Part shown: in pieces, positions 34,684 through 61,706 of the stretch
How positions within the stretch are numbered: the stretch's first letter is position 1
Layout: each line of letters opens with the position of its first letter
Assembly: GCF_001570525.1 (NCBI RefSeq)
Contig: NZ_BBXC01000007.1
Coordinates: 289,085-353,084 of the forward strand
Direction: 5' to 3'
Source of the DNA: Herbidospora sakaeratensis
Lineage (GTDB): Bacteria > Actinomycetota > Actinomycetes > Streptosporangiales > Streptosporangiaceae
Length of the DNA stretch: 64,000 nucleotides
Program-made: the position numbers and the translations under genes
The notes under the pieces: generated by a model
What the model saw: the letters and a program-made list of their open reading frames with translations, nothing else
The model's database searches: none
Told to the model about the DNA's origin: nothing

Positions 34684-36263
34684 CGCAGTTCCTTCCTGAC
34701 GAGCAGCGCCTCGGCGCCGAGACCACGGGCCCGGGCCCCGGAGAGGAACTCGGCGACCTGCTTGAGCTGGTACGACTCGGGGGTGTAGCTGGTGGCCATG
34801 ATGTGCTGGAGCCAGTCCTCCTGGCCCATGGCGTACACGTAGGCCTCCTTGGCGCGCAGTTCCCCGGCGATGCCGAGCGCCTGTTCGGCGTTGGAGCCCG
34901 ACAACTTGCGGGTGATGGCCATCTTGCGCGGCACCGGCTGGGTGAACAGATGGCTGTAGAGCCAGGTCAGCGGCGCGCCGTCGCACTCCATGCCGATGAA
35001 GGCGACGTCCACGGGGCCGACGTTCTCGCGGATGCGCGCGTAGCAGTCGCGGTCGAGGCCGGAGGAGTCGGCGCCGACGAAGACGCTACGGCCGGCGATC
35101 CTGACCCAGTAGGTCGACTTGGCCCGGATGTCGAGGTCGCAGTGCTCGCCTAGGAACGGGGTCGCGACGATCGAGCCGCCCTCGAAGGGGATCTCGTCGT
35201 AGTCGTCGACCTCCTTGACCGTGAACCCGGCCGCCTCCAGCATCAGCCGCAGCGACGGGTCCTGCCGGTGGCCGCCGCCGTTGCGGGGCACGACCACGAC
35301 GCCCAGCTTGTGCCGGATCTGGAGCAGTGACTCCAGCACGATGTGGTCCTGGTGGCCGTGGGTGATCAGGCAGTAGTCGAGGTGGTCGGGCAGGTCGACG
35401 TAGGTGAACCGGTCGCCGGTGCCGCTGTCCGAGCTGATCAGCGGGTCGACGATCACCGACGTCGACGGGCTCTGCAGCACCAGGCAGGCGTGGCCGTAGT
35501 AGCGGATCCGGCCGCCCTCGCCGAGGTTGCGGTCGCGGGGCAGGCGGGGGTCGTCGGTGAGGAGGGTGCGCAGCGTGCGGGCCGTCGCGTCGTCGCCGAC
35601 CTGGAGGAACTCCCGGATCTCGGAGAACGGGCGGGGCTTGTCGCGCAGCGCGAAGAACGCGTCGATGCCGGGGTGGGCCAGCGCCAGCGGCAACTGGACG
35701 TGGCCCGGCTCGGGCAGCCGCGGCGTGCTCAGGATGAACGGCGGCTCCGAACCGTCGTCGAGGGACAGGTCGATCGACTGGCGCGACTCGCGGTGGTAGT
35801 CCGAGCGGTAGAGCAGCGGCTCCATGAACCGCAACGAGGGGGCGTGGTCGAGGTCGTACACGAGCTCGGTCAGGCCGCGCAGCTCCGGGGGGAGCTGGGC
35901 GTAGAGCGGGGTCAGGTCGTAGCCGGTCGCCTGGGCCCGGATCATGGCCTCCGCGCTCTTGACGGCCTCGGCCAGGGCGAGCGGGGCCCGGTTCGCCGAC
36001 CGGATCTCCTCGGTCAGGGCGCGCACCTCCGCCAGCCGCGCCCGGTCGACGTTGACGAAGAAGCCGCCCTTCATCTTGGGGTTGGCGACGGCGGCGGCGT
36101 GGACGTCGGGCTGCTGGAGGTAGGAGTCGAGCATCGGCAGTTGCAGGTTGGCCAGGTTCATGGCGCCCGCGACCGGCGCCAGCGTGTGCAACCACGCCGC
36201 GAACCGGTCGACCAGGCCCTGGATCCGGACGTTCGGTCGCACGTAGAGGTCTTCGCCGTTCAT
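34677..36263 (-). CDS. CmlA-type diiron beta-hydroxylase of carrier-bound amino acids
   Basis: A 528-aa protein, nearly the length of CmlA (about 532 aa). The N-terminal domain has VRPNVRIQGLVDRFAAW, AMNLANLQLPMLDSYL and HAAAVANPKMKGGFF, recognisable CmlA-family features. The C-terminal half is a metallo-beta-lactamase fold with metal motif LITHGHQDH near residue 300 and further ligands around GEHCDLD and VFVGADSSG. CmlA-type enzymes use a non-haem diiron centre to beta-hydroxylate an aminoacyl group held on a T domain. The start overlaps the NRPS stop by 4 bp. The target may be the free A-T protein (valine-like) or one of the Asn-like modules. Confidence 0.8.
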   Translation of the reverse strand: MNGEDLYVRPNVRIQGLVDRFAAWLHTLAPVAGAMNLANLQLPMLDSYLQQPDVHAAAVANPKMKGGFFVNVDRARLAEVRALTEEIRSANRAPLALAEAVKSAEAMIRAQATGYDLTPLYAQLPPELRGLTELVYDLDHAPSLRFMEPLLYRSDYHRESRQSIDLSLDDGSEPPFILSTPRLPEPGHVQLPLALAHPGIDAFFALRDKPRPFSEIREFLQVGDDATARTLRTLLTDDPRLPRDRNLGEGGRIRYYGHACLVLQSPSTSVIVDPLISSDSGTGDRFTYVDLPDHLDYCLITHGHQDHIVLESLLQIRHKLGVVVVPRNGGGHRQDPSLRLMLEAAGFTVKEVDDYDEIPFEGGSIVATPFLGEHCDLDIRAKSTYWVRIAGRSVFVGADSSGLDRDCYARIRENVGPVDVAFIGMECDGAPLTWLYSHLFTQPVPRKMAITRKLSGSNAEQALGIAGELRAKEAYVYAMGQEDWLQHIMATSYTPESYQLKQVAEFLSGARARGLGAEALLVRKELRW

Positions 36264-49600: not shown

Positions 49601-52542
49601 GTGCGGTGGGTGAAGACGTCCCTGACGCTGACCCGGTAACCCGCCCGCCGCATCTCTCCGACCACGGCCACCGCCCTGATCGAGTCGCCGCCGGCGTCGA
49701 AGAACACGTCGTCGACGCCGACGGCGGACCCGAGCGCGGCGGCCCAGATCGCGGCGATCCGCGCCTCGTCGGGGGTGCGCGGGGCCGACCCGGATGACAC
49801 GGAGGACACGGCCGGGGCGGGCAGCGCGGCGAGGTCGATCTTGCCGCTGGTGGTGAGCGGGAACCGGTCGAGCACCTGGAGCTGCGCGGGGATCATGTAC
49901 TCGGGCAGGCCCCGCCGCAGGAAGGCGCGCAGCGCGGCGGGTTCGGCGGCCCCGGTGACGTACGCGGCGATCCGGTCGCCGTGCGGCACCACCACGGCGG
50001 CGCCGACGTCCGGGTGCCGGGCCAGCGCGGCCCGGATCTCGCCCAGCTCGACCCGATGGCCGCGGATCTTGACCTGGTGGTCGAGCCGCCCCAGGAACTC
50101 GATCCGCCCGTCGGGCAGCCAGCGGGCCTCGTCACCGGACCGGTAGAGACGCGAGCCGGGCGGCCCCCACGGGTCGGGCACGAACCGGCCGGCGGTCAGG
50201 CCCGGCCGGCCCGCGTAACCCCGGGCGACGCCGTCGCCGCCGAGGAACAACTCGCCCCGTGCGCCCACGGGCATGGGGTTCAGCGCGTCGTCGAGGATGT
50301 GCAGGCGCATGCCGGGGATCGGCCGCCCGATGGGGGGCACCCCGTCCGCCGGGTCGCAGTCGACCGCGCTCGCCAGGATGGTGATCTCGGTGGGGCCGTA
50401 GAGGTTGACCAGGCGGCGTCCCGGCGCCGACCAGTCGCGGACGACGGCCTCGGGGCACGCCTCGCCGCCCACGGTGAGCACCCGCAGCCGGGGCAGCTCG
50501 CGCGGCGGGGTCGCGGCCAGGCACGACGGCGGGATCAGCGCGGCGGTCACCTCCAGCCGTTCGAGGGTGGCGGCCAGGGCGTCGCCGGGCAGCAGGTCGT
50601 CGGCGTCGGCCAGGCAGAGGGTGGCGCCGTGCGCCAGCGCCATGACGATCTCGTAGACGGAGGCGTCGAAACTCGGCGACCCGAACTGGAGCACCCGGTC
50701 GGCGGCGGTGAGGCCCAGCAGCCCGGCCTGGTGCGCGGCCACTCCGGCCAGGCCCCGGTGCGGCACCGCCACGCCCTTCGGCCGCCCGGTCGACCCGGAG
50801 GTGTAGATGACGTACGCGAGCCGGTCGGGATCGTCGGTCCTCTCAAGGTCCGCCGAACCCCCCTCGTCGCCCGCCAGCACGATCGGGCGGCCGGGGAAGC
50901 GGGCGGCCAGGGCCGGTTCGGTGACCAGGAGCGGGGCCCCGGCGTCGTCGAGGGTCGCGTGGAGGCGCTCGTCGGGATGGGCGGGGTCGAGCGGGAGGTA
51001 GGCGGCGCCCGCCTTCAGCGCGGCCAGGAAGGCGATCACCCCCGACGGGCCGCGCCGCAGGCACACCGCCACCGGCGACTCGGCGGGCACGTCGAGCCGG
51101 GCGGCCAGCGCGGTCGCCCGCGCGTCGAGCTCGGCGTAGGTGAGCGTCGTGCCGCCGAACTCGACCGCGATCGCGCCGGGCGTGGCGGCGGCGTGCCGTT
51201 CGACGAGCCGGTGCAGGGGCGGCCACGGGCCGGGGGCCTCGGTGCGGTTCCAGCCGGCCAGGGCGTCGTGCTCGCCGGCCGTCAGCGGGTCGAGCGCGCC
51301 CAGCCGGAGGTCCGGGTCGGCGGCGACCTGCTCCAGGACCGCGACGTAGCGGGCGGCGAGCCGGGCGGCGGTCGGGTGGTCGTAGAGGGCCTCGGCGTAG
51401 GTGAGCAGCCCGTCGAGGCCGCCGTCGGGGGTCTCGGTCAGCTCGAAGGTGAGGTCGAAGAGCGCCGCCTGCCGTCGCGGCGGCAGCCGCCGCCAGTGGT
51501 CCTGCGGGGTGTTCTGGAGCACGAACGCGATCTGGAAGACGGGGTTGCGGCTCAGGTCCCGCTCCACCCCGAGATGGTCGACGACCAGGTCGAACGGGGC
51601 TCCGGCGTGCGCGAACGCGTCGAGCGCGACCTCGCGCGCCCGCCGCACCGCCTCGCGGAACGACGGGTCGCCGCCCAGGTCGGCGCGGAGCGCCACCGAG
51701 TTGACGAAGTAGCCGACGAGGTCCTCCACCTCGGGCACCGGGCGTCCGGCGACCGGGGTGCCCACGACCACGTCGGTGACCCGGGTGTGCCGGGCGAGCG
51801 TCATCGCGAAGGCGGCGTACAGGGTCGAGAACAACGAGGCCCGCTCGGCCGTGCCGAGGTCCCGCAGCGCGGCGGCGAGCGCGGCCGGCACGCGGAAGGG
51901 GTGGATGGCCCCCTCGCCCTGCTGGGTCTGCGGGCGGGGCCGGTCGCCGGGCAACTCGGCCGGGGCCGCGCCCGCCAATGTCTGCGCCCAGTAGGCCAGG
52001 TCGCCGTCGTGGCGCAGCGACTCCTGCCAGAGGGCGTAGTCGGCGTACTGGAGCGCGGGCTCCGGCAGCCGGGGGACCCGCCCCGCCGCGAAGGCCGTGT
52101 ACGCCTCCCGCAGCTCCCGGCACAACACGTCCAGCGACCAGCCGTCGACCGCGATGTGGTGCACGGCGAGGACCAGCGTGTCCTCCTCCTCGCCGACGGC
52201 CAGGACCGCACGCAGGATCGGCCCGGTCGTCAGGTCGATGGGGGTCGCCGCCTCGGCGTCGGCGACCTCCTCGCGGGGCGCGCGGGTGACCGCGAGCGGG
52301 ACGGGCGCCGGCGGGTCCACGATCTGGACCGGGCCGGACCCGTCGTCGGCGTAGCGGGTCCGCAGGATCTCGTGGCGGACCACCAGCTCCCCGAGCGCGG
52401 CGCCCAGCGCGCCCGCGTCGACGTGGCCGCCCAGCGGGACGGCCACGATCTCGACGTAGTGGGTCGCGCCGGGGGCGAGCTGGTCGAGGAACCACATCCG
52501 CCGCTGGCCGGGGGAGAGCGGGAAGGTGGCCGCCGCGTCCAT
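43645..52542 (-). CDS. NRPS, three modules (C-A-T)x3
   Basis: 2965 aa. C1 at 1-450 (HHIAVDG); A1 near 470-900, pocket read as DAYLTGLIL(K); T1 with GGDSIRAV near 950. C2 has CHAVLDGWS near 1155; A2 near 1440-1860, pocket DAWQYAAIG(K); T2 with GGYSLLVP near 1919. C3 (HHIACDG near 2092); A3 near 2410-2830, pocket DDVLGSHID(K), with NHWGVTE in place of NxYGPTE; T3 with GGHSLLAA near 2899. The three codes do not match a substrate with confidence. The N-terminal C domain means a donor is needed, such as the free A-T protein or an acyl starter. ATG 52542 shares one base with the MbtH stop. Confidence 0.92.
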   Translation of the reverse strand: MDAAATFPLSPGQRRMWFLDQLAPGATHYVEIVAVPLGGHVDAGALGAALGELVVRHEILRTRYADDGSGPVQIVDPPAPVPLAVTRAPREEVADAEAATPIDLTTGPILRAVLAVGEEEDTLVLAVHHIAVDGWSLDVLCRELREAYTAFAAGRVPRLPEPALQYADYALWQESLRHDGDLAYWAQTLAGAAPAELPGDRPRPQTQQGEGAIHPFRVPAALAAALRDLGTAERASLFSTLYAAFAMTLARHTRVTDVVVGTPVAGRPVPEVEDLVGYFVNSVALRADLGGDPSFREAVRRAREVALDAFAHAGAPFDLVVDHLGVERDLSRNPVFQIAFVLQNTPQDHWRRLPPRRQAALFDLTFELTETPDGGLDGLLTYAEALYDHPTAARLAARYVAVLEQVAADPDLRLGALDPLTAGEHDALAGWNRTEAPGPWPPLHRLVERHAAATPGAIAVEFGGTTLTYAELDARATALAARLDVPAESPVAVCLRRGPSGVIAFLAALKAGAAYLPLDPAHPDERLHATLDDAGAPLLVTEPALAARFPGRPIVLAGDEGGSADLERTDDPDRLAYVIYTSGSTGRPKGVAVPHRGLAGVAAHQAGLLGLTAADRVLQFGSPSFDASVYEIVMALAHGATLCLADADDLLPGDALAATLERLEVTAALIPPSCLAATPPRELPRLRVLTVGGEACPEAVVRDWSAPGRRLVNLYGPTEITILASAVDCDPADGVPPIGRPIPGMRLHILDDALNPMPVGARGELFLGGDGVARGYAGRPGLTAGRFVPDPWGPPGSRLYRSGDEARWLPDGRIEFLGRLDHQVKIRGHRVELGEIRAALARHPDVGAAVVVPHGDRIAAYVTGAAEPAALRAFLRRGLPEYMIPAQLQVLDRFPLTTSGKIDLAALPAPAVSSVSSGSAPRTPDEARIAAIWAAALGSAVGVDDVFFDAGGDSIRAVAVVGEMRRAGYRVSVRDVFTHRTVAALTEAVTGRAPASGQEGAAPFALLEPGDRARLPAGLDDAYPASANQVGMLYEQLKGGEADYHTITSFLVRGAFDADGLRARAAAAHARHDVLRTSFDLTSFGEPMQLVHHDAGPCVDVDDLRHLTGPEADRAVRAFLDRWRRTPLDVTRAPLLRITAHLLPGDAWRLTLVQCHAVLDGWSQHLLVGELLGREPGPIPIRYADFVRAERRRPAESAYWDAVLAAADPLTVPAAWGGTGTGHYTLPVHTGDLDAGLRALAALAGAPMKAVLHTAYLKALGVLTGRDTVWSGLVSHGRPEEPGGDRVLGLFVNSVPFGARLTGTWTDVVRRVFAGHLDLEPHRAHPLAELQRRHPSAGRLVDAVFNYVDFATSADERLDHTATYDVTQSELAFDVSTTPDGLLLTAREDRLARPYGELLTATLRGVLAAMAADPDADAGRHRLAWPAAQAAPPAADDCLHTLFERQAARTPDALAVDAPDARLTYAQLNAAADALAATLPGDGRPVPVCLPHGAGLVTTLLAVLKSGAPYLPLDPDLPEERRRALVAATAGHRPGEGPGSVAYLIHTSGSTGRPKGVAVTHRGVANRVADTIRRHRVTPADRVLLRTPIGFDAAAWEIFVPLLAGAAVVVGEGDTAWDARAVVTAVAERGVTVLQAVPSMLRLLADEGAAGLRLVYSAGEQLDRATAERVAAGLPGAELWNAYGPTECSIGCLEGRHLAGDPGEAVPIGTPIAGVDVLVAGPGGGPVADGAVGELYVGGIAVAQGYHGDPARTAAAFVPDPRGGGGRLYRTGDLVRRLPDGRYAFCGRTDAQLKVRGVRIEPGEVEAALLRHPEVAAAAVTARDNRLIGYVAGTAAPADLRAFLRRSLPAEYVPTDFATLPELPLTPNGKIDRAALPEVGRTVSRVAPRTPEERLVRDVWSDVLGVGDIGADDDFFQLGGYSLLVPRLAAALRGRSGAPIPLRDLFAASTVEAQARLLTSRDPAPAPVARDRSVPPPLSPGQRRLWFLDRLEPGSPEYVLPIVLRPQGTPEAMAAALRALADRHEILRTRYDDTPAQIVDPHPTVDFTVSADDLGTVLARELATGFDLAAGPVWRATLAADGRLLLLVHHIACDGHSAGIIRRDLDDLLAGRPLAPLPFRYADVAAAHDEGDLGYWRARLAGLPTMDLPADRPSRRTPGGATLGFDVPAGVAGAALATGRELGATPYMTTLAAFAVLLSHVCATTDVVVGTPVAGRLSPESAGVVGFFVNTLVLRCDLADVTGLAGAIPRARETALGAFAHQGLPFERLVEELAPDRDLGRTPLFQVMFEMGEEVPGDDEVLGAWTRAKFDLTLNVARRPDGSLRAVFEYATDLFTPEAIARLAGAYTRILAGEPIVTETPAPPDDVPEGGVLPEMVEEQVRRTPDAVAVEFGAESLTYAELDARANALAHRLRALGVGPDVPVGVLLDRSFELVVGLLGVLKAGGCYVPLETEYPPARIGRLLGEAGARLCLTAPGTPLPAGVRAVTVDDATAAAGPASTTRPDHLVAVYYTSGSTGRPKGVAATHRGWAVRIAAMQEAIGLRPGQGVLQKTTVVFDDLPVEVFWPLVTGGRVVLLAPGAHRDPAAILRAAADHDVAVVLVVPSMLAMLTELAPPAGLRHVGTSGEALRPELAMAFLDRFPGVTLHNHWGVTEASIDSTRHRVSRADAGEPGAVPIGRPLPGARVHVLDADLRPVLPGTRGELYIGGPGVARGYHGDPARTAAAFVPDPFTPGGRLYRTGDLARRREDGTIVFLGRTDHQVKIRGVRVEPGEIESVLRGCPGVLDAVVDVWRPPSGDLRLAGYFQAAGGTTGADVRRHLEDRLPGYLVPSALIPLPAVPRTAAGKTDRAALPPPDPAAALREQGVTPPRTAAEEIIAGIWSEALGAEVGVHNDFFHAGGHSLLAAQVIAAVQDRFDLEVSLRTLFERPTVAQLAAAVEDLIRAEVAGLSDAEVRAETTPQETRA

Positions 52543-52751
52543 CAGCTGTCCCCGTTCTCGGCCATCCTGCGCCGCAGGCTCAGCGGGCGCATGTCGGTCC
52601 AGACCCGCTCGATGTGGTCGAGGCAGTGGTCCCTGGGGCCCTCCACCCCGTCCCGCCGCCAGCCGGCCGGCGGCTCGCGGTCCGCGAGCCAGATGGAGTA
52701 CTGCTCTTCGTCGTTGAGCACGACGCTGTAGGTGCGGTCGTCGTCGGCCAT
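52542..52751 (-). CDS. MbtH-like protein
   Basis: A 69-aa protein with the complete family signature: NDEEQYSIW, PPAGW about ten residues later, then CLDHIERVWTDMRPLSLRRRM. MbtH-like proteins bind NRPS adenylation domains and are needed for their solubility or activity. It is the first gene of the 22-kb NRPS operon, with GGGGAGG before its ATG, and its stop is fused to the NRPS start (TGATG), which would keep the partner proteins in step. Confidence 0.95.
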   Translation of the reverse strand: MADDDRTYSVVLNDEEQYSIWLADREPPAGWRRDGVEGPRDHCLDHIERVWTDMRPLSLRRRMAENGDS

Positions 52752-52841
52752 CGCCCTCCCCTTCCTGTACGGCTTCCCGATCTGGCTTGACGTCCCGAAG
52801 TCTCGGCCGCGCCGACATCGCGCCGGTGTCGCCCGAGTATG

Positions 52842-52858
52842 GGAACCGTTCGGAACCG
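52842..52858. promoter_or_regulatory. Direct repeat GGAACCG-N3-GGAACCG between divergent NRPS promoters
   Basis: Two identical heptamers (52842-52848 and 52852-52858) with a 10-bp period sit in the 138-bp region between the divergent mbtH-like and thioesterase genes. On the minus strand a CATACT -10-like hexamer adjoins them. One-helical-turn direct repeats are typical operators of OmpR-fold activators such as SARPs; a SARP is encoded at 53603-54388. This is inference. Confidence 0.45.
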
Positions 52859-52889
52859 CGCCGATACCGCGCGCCGCCAGGCTCCGGCC

Positions 52890-53666
52890 ATGACCTCCGC
52901 CATGACCTCCGGCGCCTGGGCCGTGCGGCTGGGCGACCGGCCCGCGCCCGTCCGGCTCTTCTGCTTCCCCTATGCGGGCGGCGGCGCGGCCGTCTTCCGC
53001 CGCTGGCCGGCCGCGCTGCCGGGCGTCGAGGTGTACGCGATCAGGCTGCCCGGCCGCGAGAACCGGTTCTGCGAACCGCTGCTGACGAGTCACGACGGCC
53101 TGCCCGAACGGCTGGCCGACGCCCTGCGGCCGCTGCTCGACCGGCCCTACGCGCTGTTCGGGCACAGCCTGGGCGCGCTGCTCGCGTACGAGACGGCGCG
53201 GCTGCTGCGCCCGGCGCACCTGTTCGTGGGCGGCTCCCGCGCTCCGCACCTGCCGCGCCCGGCCACCGCGCCCGACGTCGCGGGCCTGGACGACGCGGCG
53301 TTCACGGCGATGGTGCGGGAGATGGGCGGCACGCCGCCGGAGTTCTTCGGCTCGGCCGAACTGGCCGAGCTGCTGCTACCGGTGCTGCGGGCCGACTTCG
53401 GCCTGGCCGAGGCCTACCGCCACCGGCCGGGCCCGCCGCTGGAGGCGCCGATCACGGCGCTGCGCGGCGCCGACGAGGACGTGACCCCGGCCATGGCGCG
53501 GGCGTGGGCGCCGCACACGGCGGCCGGGTTCGCGCTGCACGAGTTCCCCGGCGGGCACTTCTTCCTCCAGGACGGATGGGAGCGCGTCTGCCGGCTGGTC
53601 GCTCAGAACCTGCCGGCCGCGACGCCGCTGAGAAGCGCGGGGTCGCCCGACAGAATCGCCTGGTGA
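52890..53666 (+). CDS. Type II thioesterase (NRPS-associated)
   Basis: A 258-aa TEII enzyme: FCFPYAGGGAAVFRRW, nucleophile elbow LFGHSLGALLAYE near residue 88, acid in LRGADEDVTP, and His in PGGHFFLQDGW. The start is ATG 52890 or 52902. It is transcribed divergently from MbtH and overlaps the converging SARP gene by 64 bp. The usual role is removal of wrong acyl groups from T domains. It is the only dedicated thioesterase near the NRPS, which lacks an integrated TE, so final release is possible. Confidence 0.92.
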   Translation: MTSAMTSGAWAVRLGDRPAPVRLFCFPYAGGGAAVFRRWPAALPGVEVYAIRLPGRENRFCEPLLTSHDGLPERLADALRPLLDRPYALFGHSLGALLAYETARLLRPAHLFVGGSRAPHLPRPATAPDVAGLDDAAFTAMVREMGGTPPEFFGSAELAELLLPVLRADFGLAEAYRHRPGPPLEAPITALRGADEDVTPAMARAWAPHTAAGFALHEFPGGHFFLQDGWERVCRLVAQNLPAATPLRSAGSPDRIAW

Positions 53667-54388
53667 ACCCGGCGCAGCCCCGGTCCGGGCTCCACGCCGA
53701 GCTCGTCGACGAGCAGCCGCCGCGTCGAGGCGTACACCTCCAGCGCGTCGGCCTGCAGGCCGCACCGGTAGAGCGCGACCATCAGGCGGCTCTTCAGCCC
53801 CTCGCGGAGCGGCTGGCGGGCGGCGGCCTCGCCGAGGTCCCTGATGAGGTCGCGGTGGCGGCCCAGCCGCAGTTCCAGCTCGGCGCACTCGTCGAGCGTG
53901 CTCCAGCGCAGCTCGTTGAGCCAGGTCGCGCGGGCGGCGACCGGCGGGCTGGGCAGCCCGGCCAGCGCCTCGCCCCGCCACAGCGCGAGCGCCTGCCGGA
54001 GCAGCGCGGCGGCGTCGGCGGGACGGCCGTCGGCGGCGGCCGACCGGGCGGCGGCACGCAGCGCGTCGAAGCGGTCGACGTCGAGGCGGCAGCCGTCGAC
54101 CGCGAGGGCGTAGCCGGCGGACGAGGTCGTGATCTCGCACGCGGCGCCGGTCAGCGAGAACAGGCGGCGCAGCGCGGACACGCAGATCTGCACCTGCTTA
54201 CGCGCCGTCAGGGGCGGGTCGTCGCCCCACACGGCCTCGATGAGGCGGTCGAGCGCGACCACGCGACCGCTTTCCAGCACCAGGACGGCCAGGATGACCT
54301 GCTGCCTGCTCGACTGGAGGTCGACCCGCTGGGCGCCGACCCGGAGTTCGAGCGGTCCGAGAATCAGGAGTTCCACGTCTTTCGGCAT
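53603..54388 (-). CDS. SARP-family transcriptional activator
   Basis: A 261-aa Streptomyces antibiotic regulatory protein. An N-terminal OmpR-type winged helix begins ELLILGPLELRVGAQRVDL, and the bacterial transcriptional activation domain follows from about 100 (DVDRFDALRAAARSA, LWRGEALAGLP, RHRDLIRDLGEAAARQPLREGLKSRLMVALYRCG). It probably switches on the adjacent NRPS operon. ATG 54388 is chosen; a GTG at 54397 would start within the palindrome 54393-54411. The 3' end overlaps the thioesterase gene by 64 bp. Confidence 0.88.
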   Translation of the reverse strand: MPKDVELLILGPLELRVGAQRVDLQSSRQQVILAVLVLESGRVVALDRLIEAVWGDDPPLTARKQVQICVSALRRLFSLTGAACEITTSSAGYALAVDGCRLDVDRFDALRAAARSAAADGRPADAAALLRQALALWRGEALAGLPSPPVAARATWLNELRWSTLDECAELELRLGRHRDLIRDLGEAAARQPLREGLKSRLMVALYRCGLQADALEVYASTRRLLVDELGVEPGPGLRRVHQAILSGDPALLSGVAAGRF

Positions 54389-54392
54389 TGGC

Positions 54393-54411
54393 GTCACATA
54401 CGGAATGTGAC
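54393..54411. promoter_or_regulatory. Palindrome GTCACAT-N5-ATGTGAC directly upstream of the SARP gene
   Basis: 7-bp perfect arms with a 5-bp spacer, beginning 5 bp upstream of the chosen SARP start. Binding here would block initiation or overlap the 5' leader, so autoregulation or repression is likely. Its ATGTGA half-site also appears in the repeats before the AfsR-like gene (61532-61549). Confidence 0.45.
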
Positions 54412-54443
54412 ACGCGGGCCGATCATCGTGCAGTGCAGTCGGC

Positions 54444-54460
54444 CACCAATCGACCGTGAG
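54444..54460. promoter_or_regulatory. 17-bp box upstream of the SARP gene, matching a box upstream of the RiPP precursor gene
   Basis: CACCAATCGACCGTGAG differs by one base from the sequence at 58791-58807. It lies 56-72 bp upstream of the SARP start and next to the histidine-kinase stop. The two copies have the same orientation relative to their downstream genes. A binding site for the response regulator at 57869-58474 is a reasonable guess. Confidence 0.45.
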
Positions 54461-54464
54461 GAAC

Positions 54465-55589
54465 TCACATGTCCGGCCGCGGCAGCGTCACCGTGACCGT
54501 GAACGTCTCGCCGGGCCGGACCTCGACCGACACCGTGCCGCCGACGGAGGCCGCGCGTTCCTCGATGCCCTGCAGGCCGCCGGCCGGCGTCACCTCCTGC
54601 ACGCCGTGGGCGACCCCGTTGTTGACCACGGTCAGCCGGATCCCCTCGGGCACGTCGACGAGCTCGACCAGCATCCGCTGGGCCTTGCTGTGCCGCAGCG
54701 CGTTGGTGGCGGCCTCGCTGAGGATCTTGGCGACCAGTTCGTTCAGCTCCGGGGGCAGCGGCCGGTGGTCCTGGGTGCAGCTGTACTCGATCTCGGCCGC
54801 CTTGAGCAGCGGGCCGAGCGCCGACAACTCGGCCTCCAGGGTCATCCGGCGGTAGCCGGCCACGACGGCCCGCACCTCGCTGAGCGACTTGCGGGCCAGT
54901 TCGGTGATGTCGGTGATCTCCCGGCGGGCGTCGGGGTCGCCGCCGACCATCCGGTAGACGAGCTCGCCCTTGATCGCGATGGTCGACAACGCGCGGCCGA
55001 GCACGTCGTGCAGGTCGCGGGTGATGCGGGTGCGCTCGTCGGCCACGGCCATCTGGGCGAGCTCGTTCTTGGCCTGGCTCAGCTCCATCGCCCCCTGGGC
55101 GAGCCGGACCATGGCGAACAACACGCCGCCCGTGAGGGCGGTGGACAGGGTGCCGTACAGGACGCTCGTCAGGGGCAGCTCCAGCACCCACATGGTGCCG
55201 AACTGCACGGCGATGACCACGGAGAACAGCCCCCACGACCACGGCGGCGGGACCAGCACGAGCAGCGCGAACGCCAGGAACCCCGGCATGCCCAGCCAGA
55301 TCCACCCGAAGAACGCGAACGGCGCGTACGTCAGCACGACCTGCAGCGCCAGCGACCACTCCCAGCGGACGTGGACGATCCGGAGCGCGGTCAGCACGTG
55401 CAGCGTGTGCAGCGCCGTCATCGCGGCGAACAGCGACAGGGCGGCGCCGAAGGCGTCGGGCGGCAGGCCGCGGTCGACGATGCCCAGGACGGCCGCCGCC
55501 ACGTAGCCGAGATGGACGAGCAGCGTGGTCAGGAACGCGGTCCTGGCCGCGGGGTGATGGCGCAGTGAGTCGAGGATCACGGTCCGCAC
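54465..55589 (-). CDS. Two-component sensor histidine kinase (HisKA_3, NarL-partner type)
   Basis: A 374-aa membrane kinase. Five or six transmembrane helices fill residues 15-165 without a large sensor domain. The HisKA_3 phosphoacceptor is the His of TRDLHDVLGRALSTI near 195, the N box is EAATNALRHSKA and the G box is GGLQGIEERA. It starts at GTG 55589 behind GAGGAAG, 18 bp after the YcaO gene on the same strand. The partner is the NarL-type regulator at 57869-58474, separated from it by the YcaO gene. Small DesK/LiaS-like sensors often detect membrane or envelope-active compounds. Confidence 0.9.
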   Translation of the reverse strand: MRTVILDSLRHHPAARTAFLTTLLVHLGYVAAAVLGIVDRGLPPDAFGAALSLFAAMTALHTLHVLTALRIVHVRWEWSLALQVVLTYAPFAFFGWIWLGMPGFLAFALLVLVPPPWSWGLFSVVIAVQFGTMWVLELPLTSVLYGTLSTALTGGVLFAMVRLAQGAMELSQAKNELAQMAVADERTRITRDLHDVLGRALSTIAIKGELVYRMVGGDPDARREITDITELARKSLSEVRAVVAGYRRMTLEAELSALGPLLKAAEIEYSCTQDHRPLPPELNELVAKILSEAATNALRHSKAQRMLVELVDVPEGIRLTVVNNGVAHGVQEVTPAGGLQGIEERAASVGGTVSVEVRPGETFTVTVTLPRPDM

Positions 55590-55607
55590 GCCACTTCCTC
55601 CAGGGTC

Positions 55608-57791
55608 CTACAGGAACAGGGGCACGGGGTTGAGCGCGTCCTCGGGCGTGCGCGCCGGCAGGCGGCCGAGCTCGACGGGGACGTCGAAGAGACGGCCGGG
55701 CGCGAACCTGGCCCAGAAGTGCCGCATGCCCGGCACGACGACCTTCACGACGGGCAGCCCGACGTCGGGCCGCGTCTGGTCGAGCACGAGCACGTCCAGG
55801 CCGCGCGCCTCGGCGAGCGCGGCCAGGGTGGCGACGTCGGCGCCCAGGTCGGGGCCCGACAGGTCGGCATGGGTGCCCGGCCGGGTGGGCGGCGCCGCCC
55901 GATCGGGCAGCAGGTGCGGATCGGTCTCGATCGTGGCCGTCCGCCACCACGACACCAACGCGGGGTCGGTGACGGCGTACCGGGGGCCGGGCCCGGGGGT
56001 CACGGCGGGCAGGAACTGGTTCAGCTCCGTCAGCGCGCGGGACAGCGCCGCCGCCGCGCCGAAGTGGGCGCCGAAGCCGAGCATGACGTCTTCGGGCGGG
56101 CCGTCGGTCCGGCGGCTGACGGCGACGAACGCCGGCAGCCCGAAGTCGGCGGTCACGTCGAGCGCCCACACCTCGCGGCCCAGCCCGGCGTAGACCTCGC
56201 GCAGCCGGTCGAGCCAGGGGTCGGCGAAGGCGTCGAGGTCGACGGCGGGCATCCGCAGCCGGTTGTACCACCACAGGGCGACGGAGTCGCGCTCGACGAC
56301 CTCCATGAACCCCTGCACCACCGCGTCCTCCAAGGCGGCCCCCGCCGCGTTGCCGTTGGAGTCGGCGAAGGCCAGGGGCGGGCCGGGCCACGGGTAGTTG
56401 TAGTAGAGGTAGCCGGTCGGCAGGTACCGCGCGCGCCCGCCGGTCAGCGACCACAGCGGCGTCCACTCGACCGGCGTCGCGGGGTCGAACGGCTCGGAGA
56501 CCCGCTGGAAGGGGGAGCAGGCGCGGTTCCATTCGGCCCGGCCCGCGTACTGGCGCTCGCTGTAGAGCTGGCAGTCGTTCGGGTGCAGGCCCGCCTCGCC
56601 CAGGTCCTCAAGGGTGGCGGTACGCCGCAGCTCGTCGCCGTGGAAGACGCCCGAGTAGCGTTCCAGCGCCTCGCAGAGGGCGCTCGTGCGGGCCTGGACG
56701 GTGGTCCGGCCCTTGCCCGCGCTCATGCTCCGCAGGCCCGCGCGGATCTCGCCGAGGCTGCGCGCGTTGAGGGCGAAGTTGTGCCCGGCGACGTGGCCCA
56801 TCAGGAAGCGGGGCCCGCGCCGTTGCCTGCGGACGTCTCTGACCAGGCCGGTCACCGGGTCGACCAGGTGACTGTAGCGTTCCCAGACCTCCTCGGCCCG
56901 CGCGGTGCGGCCGGCCTCGGTCTTGGCCAGCGGCCGGATCTCGACGGGGCGCGCGGTCCGTGCCGCCGTCATCCCCGGGTCGCCGCAGTCCGGGCACTGC
57001 GGCCGGGCGGCGAAAGGGTGGTGGGCGGTCCGCATCGTCTGCACGTCGAAGGTGAGCACCCGGCGGGGTTCGCGCAGCCCGCCGAGCCAGCGGACCACGT
57101 CGAGGGCGGCGAGCCGGGCGCCGAGGTCGCGGGAGACCTCCAGGTCGGCCCGGGGGACCGGCGCGGGCCCCGATTGGCCGGTGGCCCGCATGACGTACAA
57201 CTCGGCGACGCGGTTGGCCCGTAATCGGTGGACCATGCACTCCCAGCAGCCCGGCGTCGCCGCGTCGAACACCGGCCCGCTCCACACCACCGATCCGCGG
57301 GGCTTCACCGGCACCCACGGCCGCCCGGCGGCGGCGACCCGCGCGGGGCCGGGCCCGAGGTAGTCGTCGCACACGGCGACGGTCAGCGCGGGGTCGTCGC
57401 CGGTGACCGTGACCCCTTCGGCGCGCAGCACCGCCGCGACCGGCTCCGGGTCGGCGCCCGCGTCCACGACCGCGACCCTGGCGGTCCGCACCGCCGCCGC
57501 GCTCAATCCCGACAGGTCCCAGAACGCGTCCTGCCCCTCGTCGTCGAGCCGGACGTACCCCTGCTGGAGCAGCCGGTCGAGCAGGTGGGCCACCTCGCCC
57601 GCCGAGGGCGGGTCGGGCCGCAGGAGCTCGACGATGTCCTCGACGGTACGGGGCTCGCCGAGCAGCGGGACGACCCGCTGGGCGACCTCCGGCCGGAGCA
57701 TCTCGACGTCGCGTTCGGACAACAGGTACGCCGCCTCGCCGGGGACGGCGATCGGATGGAGGTGCCGCTTGAGCCGATAGCGGTGTCCCAC
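55608..57791 (-). CDS. Fused TOMM cyclodehydratase: leader-binding/E1-like N-terminus plus YcaO
   Basis: About 727 aa. Residues 1-75 form a winged-helix leader-recognition region (AYLLSERDVEML, VEDIVELLRP). An E1/ThiF-like part follows with a likely zinc tetracysteine, CWEC near 175 and CPDCG near 255. From about 290 is the YcaO domain with ATP-binding GKGRTTVQARTSALCEALERYSG and ALEDAVVQGFMEVVERDSVALWW. The C-terminus reads NPVPLFL, so the usual PxPxP end is incomplete. The family turns Cys/Ser/Thr of a ribosomal peptide into azolines. GTG 57791 is chosen because GGAGGT lies just before it; ATG 57815 is the alternative. No dehydrogenase gene is near. Confidence 0.88.
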   Translation of the reverse strand: MGHRYRLKRHLHPIAVPGEAAYLLSERDVEMLRPEVAQRVVPLLGEPRTVEDIVELLRPDPPSAGEVAHLLDRLLQQGYVRLDDEGQDAFWDLSGLSAAAVRTARVAVVDAGADPEPVAAVLRAEGVTVTGDDPALTVAVCDDYLGPGPARVAAAGRPWVPVKPRGSVVWSGPVFDAATPGCWECMVHRLRANRVAELYVMRATGQSGPAPVPRADLEVSRDLGARLAALDVVRWLGGLREPRRVLTFDVQTMRTAHHPFAARPQCPDCGDPGMTAARTARPVEIRPLAKTEAGRTARAEEVWERYSHLVDPVTGLVRDVRRQRRGPRFLMGHVAGHNFALNARSLGEIRAGLRSMSAGKGRTTVQARTSALCEALERYSGVFHGDELRRTATLEDLGEAGLHPNDCQLYSERQYAGRAEWNRACSPFQRVSEPFDPATPVEWTPLWSLTGGRARYLPTGYLYYNYPWPGPPLAFADSNGNAAGAALEDAVVQGFMEVVERDSVALWWYNRLRMPAVDLDAFADPWLDRLREVYAGLGREVWALDVTADFGLPAFVAVSRRTDGPPEDVMLGFGAHFGAAAALSRALTELNQFLPAVTPGPGPRYAVTDPALVSWWRTATIETDPHLLPDRAAPPTRPGTHADLSGPDLGADVATLAALAEARGLDVLVLDQTRPDVGLPVVKVVVPGMRHFWARFAPGRLFDVPVELGRLPARTPEDALNPVPLFL

Positions 57792-57824
57792 CGCACCTCC
57801 AGAGATTGAGGGCATCGTCCCGTT

Positions 57825-57840
57825 GGCGGCAATTGTCGCC
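57825..57840. promoter_or_regulatory. Near-perfect palindrome GGCGGCAATTGTCGCC before the YcaO gene
   Basis: A 16-bp palindrome with a single mismatched pair, in the 77-bp gap between the response-regulator stop and the YcaO start. A TATAGA -10-like hexamer lies just upstream of it on the minus strand. It may mark an internal promoter with an operator. Confidence 0.35.
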
Positions 57841-57868
57841 TTGTGCCCGTCGATCGTCTATAGAGGTG

Positions 57869-58474
57869 TCAGAGCCATCCCTGTTCGCGCGCGATGCGCA
57901 CGGCGTCGACCCGGTTGCGGGCGCCGAGTTTGGTGATGCTGGCCGCGAGATAGTTCCGGACCGTGCCGAGCGAGAGGGCCAGCACCCGCGCGATGGCCCG
58001 CGGCTGCTCGCCCATCGCCACCAGCCGGAGGCACTCGATCTCCCGTGCGGTGAGCGGGCTCGCGGTCGCCTGCAGCGCGCCGATGACCACGGCCGGGTCG
58101 AGCACCGCCTCGCCGTTGCAGATCTTCCGGATGCTGGCCGAGAGCTGGTCGGGGGAGGTGTCCTTGGCGATGAACCCGAGAACGTGGGCGTCGAGCGCCC
58201 GCTTGAGGTAGCCGGGGGTGCCGAAGCTGGTGAGGATCAGCGTCTTGACCCCCGGGATCGCCTCGTGCAGCTGGCTGGCCGCCGTCAGCCCGTCGAGGCC
58301 GGGCAGGTCGACGTCGAGGATCGTGACGTCCGGGCGCACCTCCAGGGCGGTGGCCACGATCTCGTCGCCGCGCTCGATGTCCGCGACCACCTCGATGTCC
58401 TTCTCCTGCTCAAGGAGCCGGACGAGGGCCTTCCTCAGCAGGGCCATGTCCTCGGCGATCATTACGCGGATCAC
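57869..58474 (-). CDS. NarL/FixJ-type response regulator
   Basis: A 201-aa regulator. The receiver domain has VMIAEDMALLRKAL, the phosphoacceptor Asp in TILDVDLPGLDG near residue 54, and KTLILTSFG. The C-terminal LuxR-type HTH has SPLTAREIECLRLVAMGEQ and LSLGTVRNYLAASITKLGA. It starts at GTG 58474 with GGAGGA before it, 33 bp after the candidate precursor gene. Its histidine kinase is two genes downstream. Binding to the 17-bp boxes at 54444 and 58791 is suggested by their position only. Confidence 0.92.
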   Translation of the reverse strand: MIRVMIAEDMALLRKALVRLLEQEKDIEVVADIERGDEIVATALEVRPDVTILDVDLPGLDGLTAASQLHEAIPGVKTLILTSFGTPGYLKRALDAHVLGFIAKDTSPDQLSASIRKICNGEAVLDPAVVIGALQATASPLTAREIECLRLVAMGEQPRAIARVLALSLGTVRNYLAASITKLGARNRVDAVRIAREQGWL

Positions 58475-58507
58475 GGGGTCCTCCGATCGGATCTCGCACG
58501 GGCCGGC

Positions 58508-58711
58508 TTATTCGATCGAGATAAGGCAATTGCAGAATGTCAGAAATGTCGCGCTGGCCGAAGTGCCCTCGTCCTCGCGCCCGGTGAGCGACTCCACCCG
58601 GTAGGGGTCGGCGTCCGGCATCGGGACGGGGGCCCGCGGGGGGATCGCCCGTGCGGCCCCGGGCAGTCCGGCGGTCCGGATGACACCACGACGTGGATCG
58701 AAAGCCTGCAT
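58508..58711 (-). CDS. Candidate RiPP (TOMM) precursor peptide
   Basis: A 67-aa peptide from ATG 58711, preceded by GGAAGGG at seven bases. Residues 1-49 make an acidic-ended leader (Pro/Ala/Arg-rich, then PYRVESLTGREDEG). The last 18 residues, TSASATFLTFCNCLISIE, hold nine Ser/Thr/Cys including a Cys-Asn-Cys pair, the expected cyclodehydratase substrate composition. The core codons are clearly less GC-rich than the leader. It is the first gene of the set precursor, response regulator, YcaO fusion, histidine kinase, all on the minus strand. The cleavage site is not certain; after DEG is likely. No homologue is recognised. Confidence 0.65.
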   Translation of the reverse strand: MQAFDPRRGVIRTAGLPGAARAIPPRAPVPMPDADPYRVESLTGREDEGTSASATFLTFCNCLISIE

Positions 58712-58790
58712 TTCCGTGCCCTTCCGAAGCGGGTTTACACCGACTAGGCGATTGTCGGCTTCCCCCAGGAACGGCCGGTAGTGCCGCACT

Positions 58791-58807
58791 CACCGATCGA
58801 CCGTGAG
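58791..58807. promoter_or_regulatory. 17-bp box upstream of the RiPP precursor gene, matching the SARP-upstream box
   Basis: CACCGATCGACCGTGAG, 80-96 bp upstream of the precursor start and within the 217-bp divergent region shared with the secreted-protein gene. It matches 54444-54460 in 16 of 17 positions, and a TCACA follows each copy. A further CGACCGT occurs at 58825-58831. Confidence 0.45.
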
Positions 58808-58928
58808 ATTCACACATTGATCTTCGACCGTTCCATTCGTGTCCCGCGGCGGAACGGGATGGAACGCCTTATCTGTGAGACGGCCGCGACCGGCCGCCTC
58901 TCCCGTTGCGATCAGAGAAGGACAGATC

Positions 58929-59411
58929 ATGAAAAGCGTGCTCAACCGGCTGGCCGCCGTCATCGTGGCCGGCGTCGGCGTCGTCGGCCTCACCACGGCG
59001 CCCGCCCAGGCGGCGACCGTCATCACCGCCCACCTGGAGATCGGCTTCAACACCGGCGTGCCCGCCGCCCGGACCATCAACCTGAACGTCCACGTCCCGA
59101 TGAACGAGTACGACGCGAACGGCTACCTCATCCACGGCGCCCGGATCCAGGTCCGCTTCTACGGCAGCGACCCGGGCACCGACCCGATGATCTACGGGCC
59201 GATCACCTGGTACAAGGACGACTACGGCCTGACCGCCGGCCCCGACGGCATCCACCTCGACTACGGCTGGGAGGTCCCCCAGGGCTCGTTCCTCAACGAG
59301 GACAGCGGCGTCGCCAACAACGGCGACGAGGTCTACATCGTCGCCAAGTTCATCGACGGCGACGGCGCGACCATCAGCGCCAACTCCAACACCGAAGAGG
59401 GCCTCTACTAG
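58929..59411 (+). CDS. Small secreted protein, function unknown
   Basis: A 160-aa protein with a clear Sec signal peptide (MKSVLNRLAAVIVAG to TTAPAQA, cleavage near residue 28) and a mature part of about 132 residues. The mature part is acidic and rich in Asp, Gly, Tyr and Asn, probably all beta-strand, with at most no cysteine and no recognised catalytic motif. AAGGA precedes the ATG. It diverges from the RiPP precursor gene across a shared regulatory region, so it may be controlled by the same system; an extracellular binding or immunity function is speculation. Its stop overlaps the AfsR-like gene by 4 bp. Confidence 0.75.
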   Translation: MKSVLNRLAAVIVAGVGVVGLTTAPAQAATVITAHLEIGFNTGVPAARTINLNVHVPMNEYDANGYLIHGARIQVRFYGSDPGTDPMIYGPITWYKDDYGLTAGPDGIHLDYGWEVPQGSFLNEDSGVANNGDEVYIVAKFIDGDGATISANSNTEEGLY

Positions 59412-61519
59412 GCCGTCACCCCGCCCACCATCTTCAAGGCCCGTTCGAAGTACTCCGCCGCCGGCCCGAACCGCCCCTGCGTCAGATGGTCGTCCCCCAG
59501 GTCGCAGAGCGCCGCGATCGTCCGGGCCGCGTGCACCGCCGTCCGGTGCAGGACCCGCGCGTCGTCGTAGCGCGCGCACTCGTGCAGGTGCCGGTGCAGG
59601 GTCGCCGACAGGTCCAGGGCGTGCGCCGGCCAGCCGTGCCGGGCCGCGTGGACGGCCACCGCGAGCAGGTTGGCCAGTTCGCTCTCCACCGCCGCCGACG
59701 CCGTCTGCACGTAGTGGTCGAACAACCGGGTGAGCGCGGCCTGCCGGTCGTGGTCGGTGTCCTCGTCCGCGAGGGTCGCGGTGGCGTGGGCGCGGGGGAG
59801 GTCGTGGAAGCGGTACCGCCCGGGGGCGGGTTCCTGGAGCAGGTGGGCATCGACCAGGTCGTCCAGGAGACGACCGGCGTGTTCGATCGTGGTGCCGACC
59901 AGGGCGGCGGCGGCCAGGGGTTCGATGTCGGGGCCGGGGTGGAGGCCGAGCAGGCGGTACATGTCCTGCTGGCCGGGGGTGAGGTGGTGGTACGACAGGT
60001 CGAGCGCGGCCGCGATGCTGAGCGGGCCCACTTCCAGTTCGCCCAGGCGGTGCTGGTGGTCGCGCATGCGGTCGGCGAGGTGGGCGGGGGTCCAGCCGGG
60101 GCGGATGCGCAGGCGGGCGGCGGCGATCCTGATCGCCAGCGGCAGGCGGCCGCACAACTCCACGATCTCGGTGAGCAGGCCGGGGGCCTCGCCGCTGACC
60201 CGTTGCTCGCCGGCGGTGCGGGCGAACAGGGTGAGGGCGTCGGCGCGGGGGAGCACGTCCAGCGAGAGGGGGCGGACGTCTTCCAGGCCGGCCAGCCTGC
60301 GGCGGCTGGTGATCAGGACCAGGCAGGTGGGTGAACCGGGGAGCAGCGGGCGGACCTGGGCCTCGGTCGCCACGTTGTCGAGCAGCACCAGGACGCGGCG
60401 GCCCGCCAGGCGGGTGCGGTAGAGGGCGGCGCGGGCGCCGGGGTCGTGCGGGATGCGGTCGCCGGGCACGCCGAGCGAGCGGAGCAGCTGGTCGAGGGCG
60501 TCGCCCGGGTCGACCGGCGCGCCGCCCCGGGTGAAGCCGCGCAGGTCGACGAACAGCTGCCCGTCGGGGTAGCGGTCGGCCAGCCGGTGGGCGACGTGCA
60601 CGGCCAGGGTCGTCTTGCCCACCCCGGCCATCCCGTCGATGGCGCCGATCACCGGGGTCGCGAGCTCGTCCAGGACGGCGATCTCGGCGGTCCGGCCGGT
60701 GAAGCTGGCGATGTCGCGCGGCAGTTCCCGGGGGACGACCGGGGGCGTGCCCGCCGGCGCGGCCAGGTCGGCGTGGCCGCCGAGGATCTGGTGGTGCAGG
60801 CGTTGCAGCGGCGGGCTCGGGTCGATGCCGAGGTCGACGTTGAGGCGTCGCCGCAGGTCGCGGTAGGCGCGCAGGGCCTCGGCCTGGCGGCCTGAGCGGT
60901 AGAGGGCCAGCATCCACTGGGCGTGCAGGTGTTCGCGGAGCGGTTGTTCGGCGACGAGGGCGCCCAGGTCGGCGAGCAGGTCGTCGTGGTGGCCGAGGGC
61001 CAGGCGCGACTCGATCCACGACTCCTGGGCGGCCAGTTTGCTCTCCTCCAGGCGGATGCGCTCGGCGTCGAGGAGGGGGTCGAGGGCGACGTCCTCGAAA
61101 GGGCGGCCTCGCCACAGGCCCAGCGCGCCGCGCAGCCGTTCGGACGCCAGGCCCGGCCGCCCGGCCGTCAGGGCGCGGCGGCCCTGGGCGGCGAGGTCCT
61201 CGAAGGTCAGCAGGTCGAGGTCGGCGGGCGTGAGGCGGATCTCGTAGCCGCTCGGCACCGTCGACAACAACGGCGGTTCGGCGCGTCCGGCCAGGCCGAG
61301 CACCTGTCTCAGCGCCGACACGTAGGTTCGCAGGGCGACGGCCGCGGTTCTGGGCGGGCGTTGCGGCCACAGGGCGTCGACGAGCCGGTCGACGTGGACC
61401 GGCCGGTTGACGTGCAGCAACAGGACGGCCAGCAGGACCCGCTGTTTGGCCGCGCCCAGCCGGACCACGCGGTGGCCGTCGGAGCGGACTTCCAGTGTGC
61501 CAAGGACACGAAACCGCAT
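59408..61519 (-). CDS. AfsR-like SARP/NB-ARC regulator
   Basis: 703 aa. A SARP DNA-binding and BTAD region (1-240) starts MRFRVLGTLEVRSDG. The NB-ARC ATPase follows, with Walker A DGMAGVGKTTLAVH near 305, Walker B RRVLVLLDN and LITSRRRLAGL. It ends in a short helical region, RFGPAAEYFERALKM. AfsR is about 990 aa with a long TPR domain; here the repeats are mostly missing. ATG 61519 fits the family start better than upstream codons, though no ribosome-binding site is seen. Two heptamer repeats lie just before it. The targets may be the RiPP locus or the pathway beginning at 61707. Confidence 0.88.
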   Translation of the reverse strand: MRFRVLGTLEVRSDGHRVVRLGAAKQRVLLAVLLLHVNRPVHVDRLVDALWPQRPPRTAAVALRTYVSALRQVLGLAGRAEPPLLSTVPSGYEIRLTPADLDLLTFEDLAAQGRRALTAGRPGLASERLRGALGLWRGRPFEDVALDPLLDAERIRLEESKLAAQESWIESRLALGHHDDLLADLGALVAEQPLREHLHAQWMLALYRSGRQAEALRAYRDLRRRLNVDLGIDPSPPLQRLHHQILGGHADLAAPAGTPPVVPRELPRDIASFTGRTAEIAVLDELATPVIGAIDGMAGVGKTTLAVHVAHRLADRYPDGQLFVDLRGFTRGGAPVDPGDALDQLLRSLGVPGDRIPHDPGARAALYRTRLAGRRVLVLLDNVATEAQVRPLLPGSPTCLVLITSRRRLAGLEDVRPLSLDVLPRADALTLFARTAGEQRVSGEAPGLLTEIVELCGRLPLAIRIAAARLRIRPGWTPAHLADRMRDHQHRLGELEVGPLSIAAALDLSYHHLTPGQQDMYRLLGLHPGPDIEPLAAAALVGTTIEHAGRLLDDLVDAHLLQEPAPGRYRFHDLPRAHATATLADEDTDHDRQAALTRLFDHYVQTASAAVESELANLLAVAVHAARHGWPAHALDLSATLHRHLHECARYDDARVLHRTAVHAARTIAALCDLGDDHLTQGRFGPAAEYFERALKMVGGVTA

Positions 61520-61531
61520 AGACCGGCAATA

Positions 61532-61549
61532 CCACATATTGTTCACATA
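61532..61549. promoter_or_regulatory. Direct heptamer repeat (SARP-box-like) upstream of the AfsR-like gene
   Basis: On the minus strand TATGTGA and TATGTGG are separated by 4 bp (11-bp period), the classical spacing of SARP binding sites, 13-30 bp upstream of the start codon. This suggests autoregulation or cross-regulation by the SARP at 53603-54388. Confidence 0.45.
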
Positions 61550-61706
61550 CTGGGATCCTTGTTCCATTCTTCAGTTCAGGCACTCGGGGCCCGGGGGTGC
61601 CGCCGGATTTCGTGCCCTACACAATCCGGGTTTCCGGACAAAATTGCCGAACTCTGTCAAGCCACGCCTTTACCGGCTTTTTATGGGCGGGCCGCAAAGT
61701 GGCCGC

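Follow-up and report, generated by a model that had tools for sequence, protein, structure and literature searches.

We analysed a 64,000-nucleotide stretch of the genome of Herbidospora sakaeratensis (contig NZ_BBXC01000007.1, positions 289,085 to 353,084; hereafter the window), which contains a small gene cassette around a fused YcaO protein. Its five genes are transcribed from the minus strand in the order peptide, response regulator (RR), YcaO fusion, sensor histidine kinase (HK) and SARP activator, with gaps of 33, 53, 18 and 67 bp, and the row looks like one operon (Table 1). A preliminary description had proposed the first four of these parts; all were recovered where it had placed them, the three larger proteins with Pfam/NCBIfam domains that agree, and the SARP gene sits just beyond the range it had covered (54465-58711). 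The argument below is built on this gene order, on the conservation of the module in other Actinobacteria and on two operator-like sites in the promoters of the peptide and SARP genes. The shared operator sites suggest that the peptide system regulates itself, and neighbouring natural-product genes may be switched on by it as well.

Table 1. Features of the cassette and of the adjoining biosynthetic cluster (window coordinates)
Feature	Position	Strand	Basis
Candidate precursor peptide, 67 aa	58508-58711	-	ATG, place, ribosome site, operator
NarL/LuxR-type response regulator (RR), 201 aa	57869-58474	-	PF00072 + PF00196 (GerE)
Leader-binding/E1-like + YcaO fusion, presumed cyclodehydratase, 735 aa	55608-57815	-	TIGR03882, TIGR03604, PF02624
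Sensor histidine kinase (HK), 374 aa	54465-55589	-	PF07730 (HisKA_3) + PF02518 (HATPase_c)
SARP (AfsR-type) activator, 264 aa	53603-54397	-	PF03704 + PF00486
Operator 1, GTGTGAATCTCACGGTCGATCGGTGAGTG, presumed RR site, peptide promoter	58787-58815	-	15.4 bits, best in window
Operator 2, GTGAGTTCCTCACGGTCGATTGGTGGCCG, presumed RR site, SARP promoter	54440-54468	-	12.8 bits, second in window
Nonribosomal peptide synthetase (NRPS) + MbtH-like genes, presumed SARP target cluster	36260-52751	-	single genes, see text
Thioesterase, presumed type II, of the NRPS cluster	52839-53666	+	PF00975

The YcaO fusion scored above the cut-offs of both TIGR03604 (259.9 bits; cut-off 219.25) and TIGR03882 (127.7 bits; cut-off 36.9), and its residues 15-733 matched the cyanobactin heterocyclase LynD (4v1t) with E=2.3e-156, the match to TruD (4bs9) being 3e-147. 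It thus unites the YcaO cyclodehydratase and the leader-binding partner that mark clusters for thiazole/oxazole-modified microcins (TOMMs) or linear azole-containing peptides (LAPs). At 127 positions the 78 relatives described below are conserved to at least 95%, and 119 of these are retained; of the eight that differ, three (42, 53 and 54) belong to the N-terminal part. Based on the LynD match, the TIGR families and the retained positions, the fusion probably has cyclodehydratase activity of the LynD/TruD type. No orthologue above 53% identity was found in 7 genomes of the genus, in 341 genomes of the family (three candidates scored per genome) or in a pattern scan over 84,980 species. Elsewhere in the same genome, four adjacent YcaO-domain matches were seen at G000:C33:39910-43429.

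The pattern scan yielded 183 relatives, of which the best 80 were kept; the 39 loci with actinobacterial titles among them were annotated and the other 41 left out. A further 40 regions came from the window's own genome and its family, with weaker matches and some same-genus matches left out. A quick YcaO tree of 78 relatives plus the window (L043 was omitted, as its gene was not called whole) separated two sets: 33 loci of a LanM/exporter type and 45 loci that we refer to as the cassette set. Counting a gene when it occurred anywhere in the 10-18 kb locus region, the 45 actinobacterial cassette loci contained an RR in 41 cases, an HK in 41, both in 37, a SARP in 27, SagB in 22 and LanM in none. 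For the LanM-type loci the corresponding numbers were LanM 28, RR 29, HK 16 and both 14; unusual members of this set are L038, L060, L130, L147, L153 and L161. Given the RR, HK and combined counts in the cassette set, a YcaO module with an RR and an HK, and often a SARP, recurs beyond chance in Actinobacteria. The proposal that the locus departs from a standard TOMM cluster is sustained, the RR/HK pair being part of this conserved module. The reported lack of a nearby dehydrogenase is correct for the window (seed search, 40001-64000) and does not extend to the relatives, considering the SagB genes in 22 of the 45. Another locus of the same genome, L163 (C10:471662-487890), and its relatives combine YcaO and SagB with a LanM-like protein, two ABC transporters and two two-component systems, one ABC transporter of its relative L023 having a C39 peptidase domain; such loci are apparently clusters for azole/lanthipeptide hybrids among the ribosomally synthesised and post-translationally modified peptides (RiPPs).

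In a quick RR tree, the window RR shared a group with 42 cassette-set RRs (41 and that of L043; 43 rows) at an SH-aLRT support of 93, which is under the star level of 95, and all 25 other RRs of the same genome in this tree fell outside the group. The pairwise distances of YcaO and RR were correlated (r=0.84, 41 loci), a value reached in none of 2000 permutations (maximum 0.28), although such a correlation is also produced by shared descent. Elsewhere in its own genome the HK was matched most closely by the kinase of another YcaO cassette, whose two halves gave 38% and 36%. Kinase genes of 657-794 aa, around twice the usual size, occurred in 16 of the 45 cassette loci; in L164 and L045 each half of the long kinase by itself matches the window HK, which looks like a tandem fusion of two kinases. 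Among 24 kinases of single size, the window's included, the N-terminal 170 residues had a mean identity of 34% versus 51% for the kinase part, a pattern that a varying ligand would produce, but that membrane regions can be expected to show anyway. The earlier suggestion that the split kinase/regulator pair serves the peptide system thus gains ground in two respects: the pair belongs to the YcaO module, judging from its conservation and the RR tree, and it probably controls the precursor and SARP genes, judging from the predicted operators described below. A dedicated HK and RR linked to the peptide gene, as in autoinduced peptide systems, are present here, given the operon-like row, the co-occurrence in the 45 loci and the RR group.

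The 67-residue peptide ends in GTSASATFLTFCNCLISIE; eight of its last 20 residues are Cys, Ser or Thr, and a GGAAGG ribosome site lies 8 nt upstream of its ATG. The open reading frame (ORF) was not called by the gene caller, and the peptide matched no Pfam or NCBIfam family (NCBIfam at E 0.01). By itself it is a weak gene candidate, and its identification as the precursor rests on place, ribosome site and operator. In the relatives, genes for small peptides immediately precede YcaO, except in L133 and L137, where they follow SagB. The peptides carry a motif of the approximate form LxIExLD, followed by 11-30 residues in 31 of 36; these 36 were picked by hand on position and motif, which makes the motif frequency among them partly a matter of choice, and four further precursors (L039, L041, L059 and L154) stand outside this set. 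Several end in short candidate cores, such as WTYCG (in L164, a locus of the window's own genome), PSYTG, PTYC and PWSYCG, and the candidate cores differ strongly from locus to locus. Of five relatives' precursors scanned, four matched TIGR04351, of which one exceeded the cut-off and three fell short of it, and the leader is TIGR04351-like in some precursors and almost absent in others. The precursors of L041 and L047 have two repeats of motif and core (IDxLD, then YGCATGMAPLP), and two peptides may arise from one gene there. The expectation that a precursor would be found next to homologous YcaO fusions was borne out for small precursors as such, which are often present there, and failed for the sequence of this particular peptide, which is not conserved.

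The upstream regions share a 29-bp element of the approximate form RTGAAnATTTCAY followed by a third half-site, RTGA. A model of it was obtained by expectation-maximisation from 900 bp of DNA upstream of each of the 45 YcaO genes, leaving out the window. The mean site score was 28.2 bits, with 42 loci above 8 bits, as compared to 13.4-14.0 bits in five shuffled sets; since the latter also gave 34-38 loci above 8 bits, it is the score and not the count that constitutes the evidence. When each clade was scored with a model that excluded it, 92 hits of at least 12 bits (a threshold of our own choice) were obtained in 749 kb, 73 of which lay within 900 bp upstream of YcaO, and in 38 of the 45 loci the top hit was in that region. 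Around the SARP genes a hit was found at most 300 bp upstream in 23 of the 27 loci that have one, often in a shared divergent promoter. A site of at least 10 bits occurred within 450 bp before the precursor in 34 of the 36 loci with a called precursor; the distance was 83-127 bp in 27 of the 36 and, in the other seven with a site, 57, 59, 181, 189, 240, 328 or 396 bp. In L133 and L137 the precursor forms a separate unit, and there it is preceded by a site of its own, 90 and 98 bp away, respectively.

Applied to both strands of the window, the held-out model ranked operators 1 and 2 first and second, the next non-overlapping hit scoring 6.0 bits. The centre of operator 1 lies 90 bp before the peptide ATG and that of operator 2 lies 57 or 66 bp before the SARP gene, depending on which of its two possible starts is used. 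The seeds of the first model had been chosen by visual inspection at the same time as the window site, and for this reason the search was repeated blindly with 400 random starts on 30 representative loci, excluding the window. Of the five best models, four described the operator (scores 642-649, against 361-369 for the best of three shuffled sets), and all four ranked operators 1 and 2 first and second in the window at 14.8-19.4 bits, followed by hits of 6.7-9.0 bits that partly overlapped the operators. The remaining model, third best with 647.7, described another motif that lies inside the SARP gene in L030; it does not point to the operator places in the window and was left unused. A 17-bp core common to both operators, CTCACGGTCGATYGGTG, is found in just two exact copies across the 8.6-Mb genome, namely these two; five further places match it with two mismatches. 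Held-out and blind models thus agree on a conserved operator-like element at the peptide promoter, which the RR is predicted to bind. Reading of the sequence also revealed a perfect inverted repeat at the SARP start (54393-54411, GTCACAT-TCCGT-ATGTGAC), with the same GTGA half-sites facing outwards.

Downstream of the SARP gene lies an NRPS cluster. The product of 36260-43648 has condensation, AMP-binding and carrier domains, while 43645-52542 was judged to be an NRPS gene and 52542-52751 an MbtH-like gene by reading the sequence; a CmlA-type hydroxylase, aminotransferases and a transporter of the major facilitator superfamily belong to the same cluster. On the other side, a small, apparently secreted protein (58929-59411, plus strand), for which Pfam and NCBIfam gave no match at E 0.01, is divergent from the peptide gene and has the promoter region in common with it, and a second, AfsR-like SARP/NB-ARC/TPR regulator (59408-61567, minus strand) adjoins the cassette.

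We propose, giving it an even chance of being correct, that the cassette is a self-regulating YcaO-peptide signal system that gates the neighbouring biosynthetic cluster. The YcaO fusion would bind the 67-residue precursor and turn Cys, Ser and Thr residues near its C-terminus into azolines, and general proteases and exporters would take care of maturation and export. The kinase would respond to the modified peptide and, as is usual for its family, phosphorylate the NarL-type regulator. The regulator in turn is predicted to bind operator 1, closing a feedback loop at the peptide promoter, and operator 2 at the SARP promoter, upon which the SARP would activate the adjacent NRPS cluster. Extended to the relatives, the proposal describes a widespread actinobacterial family of YcaO-made pheromones with hypervariable, very short C-terminal cores, each with its own kinase and regulator, positive self-control and SARP-mediated control of unrelated neighbour clusters; this extension we regard as tentative, somewhat short of an even chance.

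Several observations weigh against the proposal. The window YcaO sits on a long branch between the two sets: the 45 loci without the window are split off at an SH-aLRT of 100 and the 33 at 92, so the strongest split places it on the LanM-type side, and it joins the 45 only by midpoint rooting (as their sister) together with the branch of 92. Its nearest rows by tree path are LanM-type as well, and the YcaO tree alone does not decide to which set the window belongs. Under the leave-clade-out procedure, four of the 45 loci (L154, L157, L159 and L162) had no hit of at least 12 bits, and in L063, L149 and L158 the top hit was elsewhere. Three hits of at least 12 bits, the best at 15.5 bits, were also present in 288 kb of control DNA (18 regions of the same genomes); by score alone operator 1 is not exceptional, and the argument for the window sites therefore comes from their rank, position and shared core. 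The coding score of the peptide is negative (-2.7), yet the best of the six frames at that place. The LxIExLD leader motif is not found in it: scored with a matrix built from the 36 relatives' precursors, it ranks 77 of 341 ORFs. In local alignment to those precursors 628 of 1000 shuffles did as well and the peptide ranked 235 of 298 ORFs, for which reason a likeness of its FCNCL to FCFCL in L130, and to L059, was dropped as evidence. A Pfam scan of the neighbours and a search with SagB, C39-exporter and LanM seeds over 40001-64000 recognised no exporter, peptidase or SagB next to the cassette, and thus no dedicated exporter or processing protease of the kind used in autoinduced systems. Control of the NRPS cluster by the SARP is a presumed link; in a search for SARP heptamer repeats before the NRPS operon, 16 of 300 shuffles did as well. 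Finally, biosynthetic genes are only modestly enriched in the cassette flanks: ketoacyl synthases made up 7 of 131 flank members versus no more than 2 of 131 in control DNA, up to four of them contributed by L024 and L030, which carry the same cluster, and AMP-binding domains numbered 5 versus 3, in a flank set that omits 10 of the 12 Streptomycetaceae loci bearing the L024/L030 cluster.

The main rival is an auto-induced bacteriocin, i.e. an antibacterial LAP with a two-component system of its own that, in the manner of nisin, steps up production of the peptide, the SARP site being a side effect of shared regulation. The LanM-type relatives with exporters do have the same kind of RR (29 of 33) and, in 16 of 33, an HK, and in nine of the 33 the best hit of the operator model lies 83-100 bp before the precursor (6.5-15.7 bits); moreover, a passage in PMC10663231 describes lanthipeptide clusters such as that of nisin, with their two-component kinases, as autoinducible. 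We nevertheless consider a bacteriocin rather unlikely, since the cassette lacks a recognisable exporter or peptidase at its side (immunity genes were not searched for), LanM is absent from all 45 cassette loci, the site stands near the SARP in 23 of 27 loci that have one, and candidate cores as short as WTYCG end some of the precursors. Also among the main rivals, and unlikely in our view, is a regulon for an unrelated cue, in which the kinase senses the envelope, a lipid or temperature, as LiaS and DesK do, and the peptide is a co-produced metabolite that together with the SARP forms the joint output. Such a role would suit the membership of large families (62 matches to the RR and 27 to the HK in the same genome, their own included) and the hydrophobic N-terminal half of the kinase, in which no clear external domain could be read. 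The linkage and co-divergence of RR and YcaO, however, go beyond what a general stress system needs, even if shared descent also raises the correlation.

That the 67-residue ORF is not the precursor at all and the enzyme's substrate is encoded elsewhere we regard as improbable. The missing leader motif, the missing similarity and the weak coding score speak for it, as do the NHLP-type precursors found at other YcaO loci of the same genome. On the other hand, the ORF has a good ribosome site and is the first to follow operator 1, from which it is separated by a distance typical of the relatives, and the nearby ORFs that exceed it in motif score (53603-53782, 57585-57809 and 58218-58604) lie inside or opposite the cassette genes. 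Incorporation of the modified peptide into an NRPS or polyketide synthase product, finally, is very improbable, and as a general reading such a RiPP hybrid was set aside because the flanks of the cassettes vary. Ketosynthase-, acyl-ligase- or NRPS-like genes do adjoin several cassettes, and all 21 locus pairs with a YcaO identity of at least 70% share flank genes; that closely related cassettes keep their flanks also weighs against the main proposal. Nevertheless, the 131 flank genes represent 126 Pfam families, 38 of the 82 pairs at 60-70% identity share no flank gene whatsoever, and L045 and L129 (78% identity) have only one of eight in common.

Under laboratory conditions many gene clusters of actinomycetes stay silent, and the signals that wake them are sought. 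If the proposed signal system is real, a cluster-linked peptide signal recognisable by its operator and YcaO gene would provide a direct handle on the neighbouring cluster, as the peptide to supply, or the kinase to switch on, could be read from the sequence. A group of YcaO loci that lack exporters would gain a function, and defined systems would become available for testing peptide signalling in Actinobacteria, which one review (PMC4748050) mentions in passing beside the butyrolactones. A true pheromone family would moreover amount to a portable peptide switch for specialised metabolism.

No description of a YcaO/two-component/SARP cassette with its own operator was found in the parts of the open-licence PMC literature that were searched, nor a match to the term TIGR04351; a term search of Cox 2015 (PMC4603692) returned neither 'two-component' (0) nor 'histidine kinase' (0). 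What appears to be known already is the LynD-type TOMM enzyme and, by analogy, a working principle that resembles nisin autoinduction. The cyanobactin heterocyclases LynD and TruD have the same domain order over their full length, leader-binding/E1-like followed by YcaO. The window cassette is distinguished from their systems by its linkage to a two-component system and a SARP and by the LxIExLD motif in the precursors of its relatives; proteases, including those of the PatA/PatG type that mark cyanobactin clusters, were absent by Pfam from the cassette proteins and five neighbouring genes (no whole-genome search was made). With the 'putative TOMM peptide' loci of TIGR04351 and the NHLP-type loci it shares, in its relatives, TIGR04351-matching precursors that adjoin YcaO genes, whereas the window peptide has no TIGR04351/NHLP-type leader match (NCBIfam at E 0.01). 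Goadsporin differs by its six azoles and two dehydroalanines. We know of no such two-component/SARP cassette in the goadsporin cluster. A further comparison is NosP of the nosiheptide cluster, which reportedly answers to ligands derived from a RiPP precursor, although it acts on its own thiopeptide cluster and is not known to require a kinase. The peptide autoinduction systems of the nisin and Agr types resemble the proposed circuit in working principle, with a modified or processed peptide, a kinase, a response regulator and self-regulation. From both the cassette is set apart by its YcaO chemistry, its NarL-family regulator, its presumed SARP target and its occurrence in Actinobacteria, the sensing of the peptide ligand being the proposal made here.

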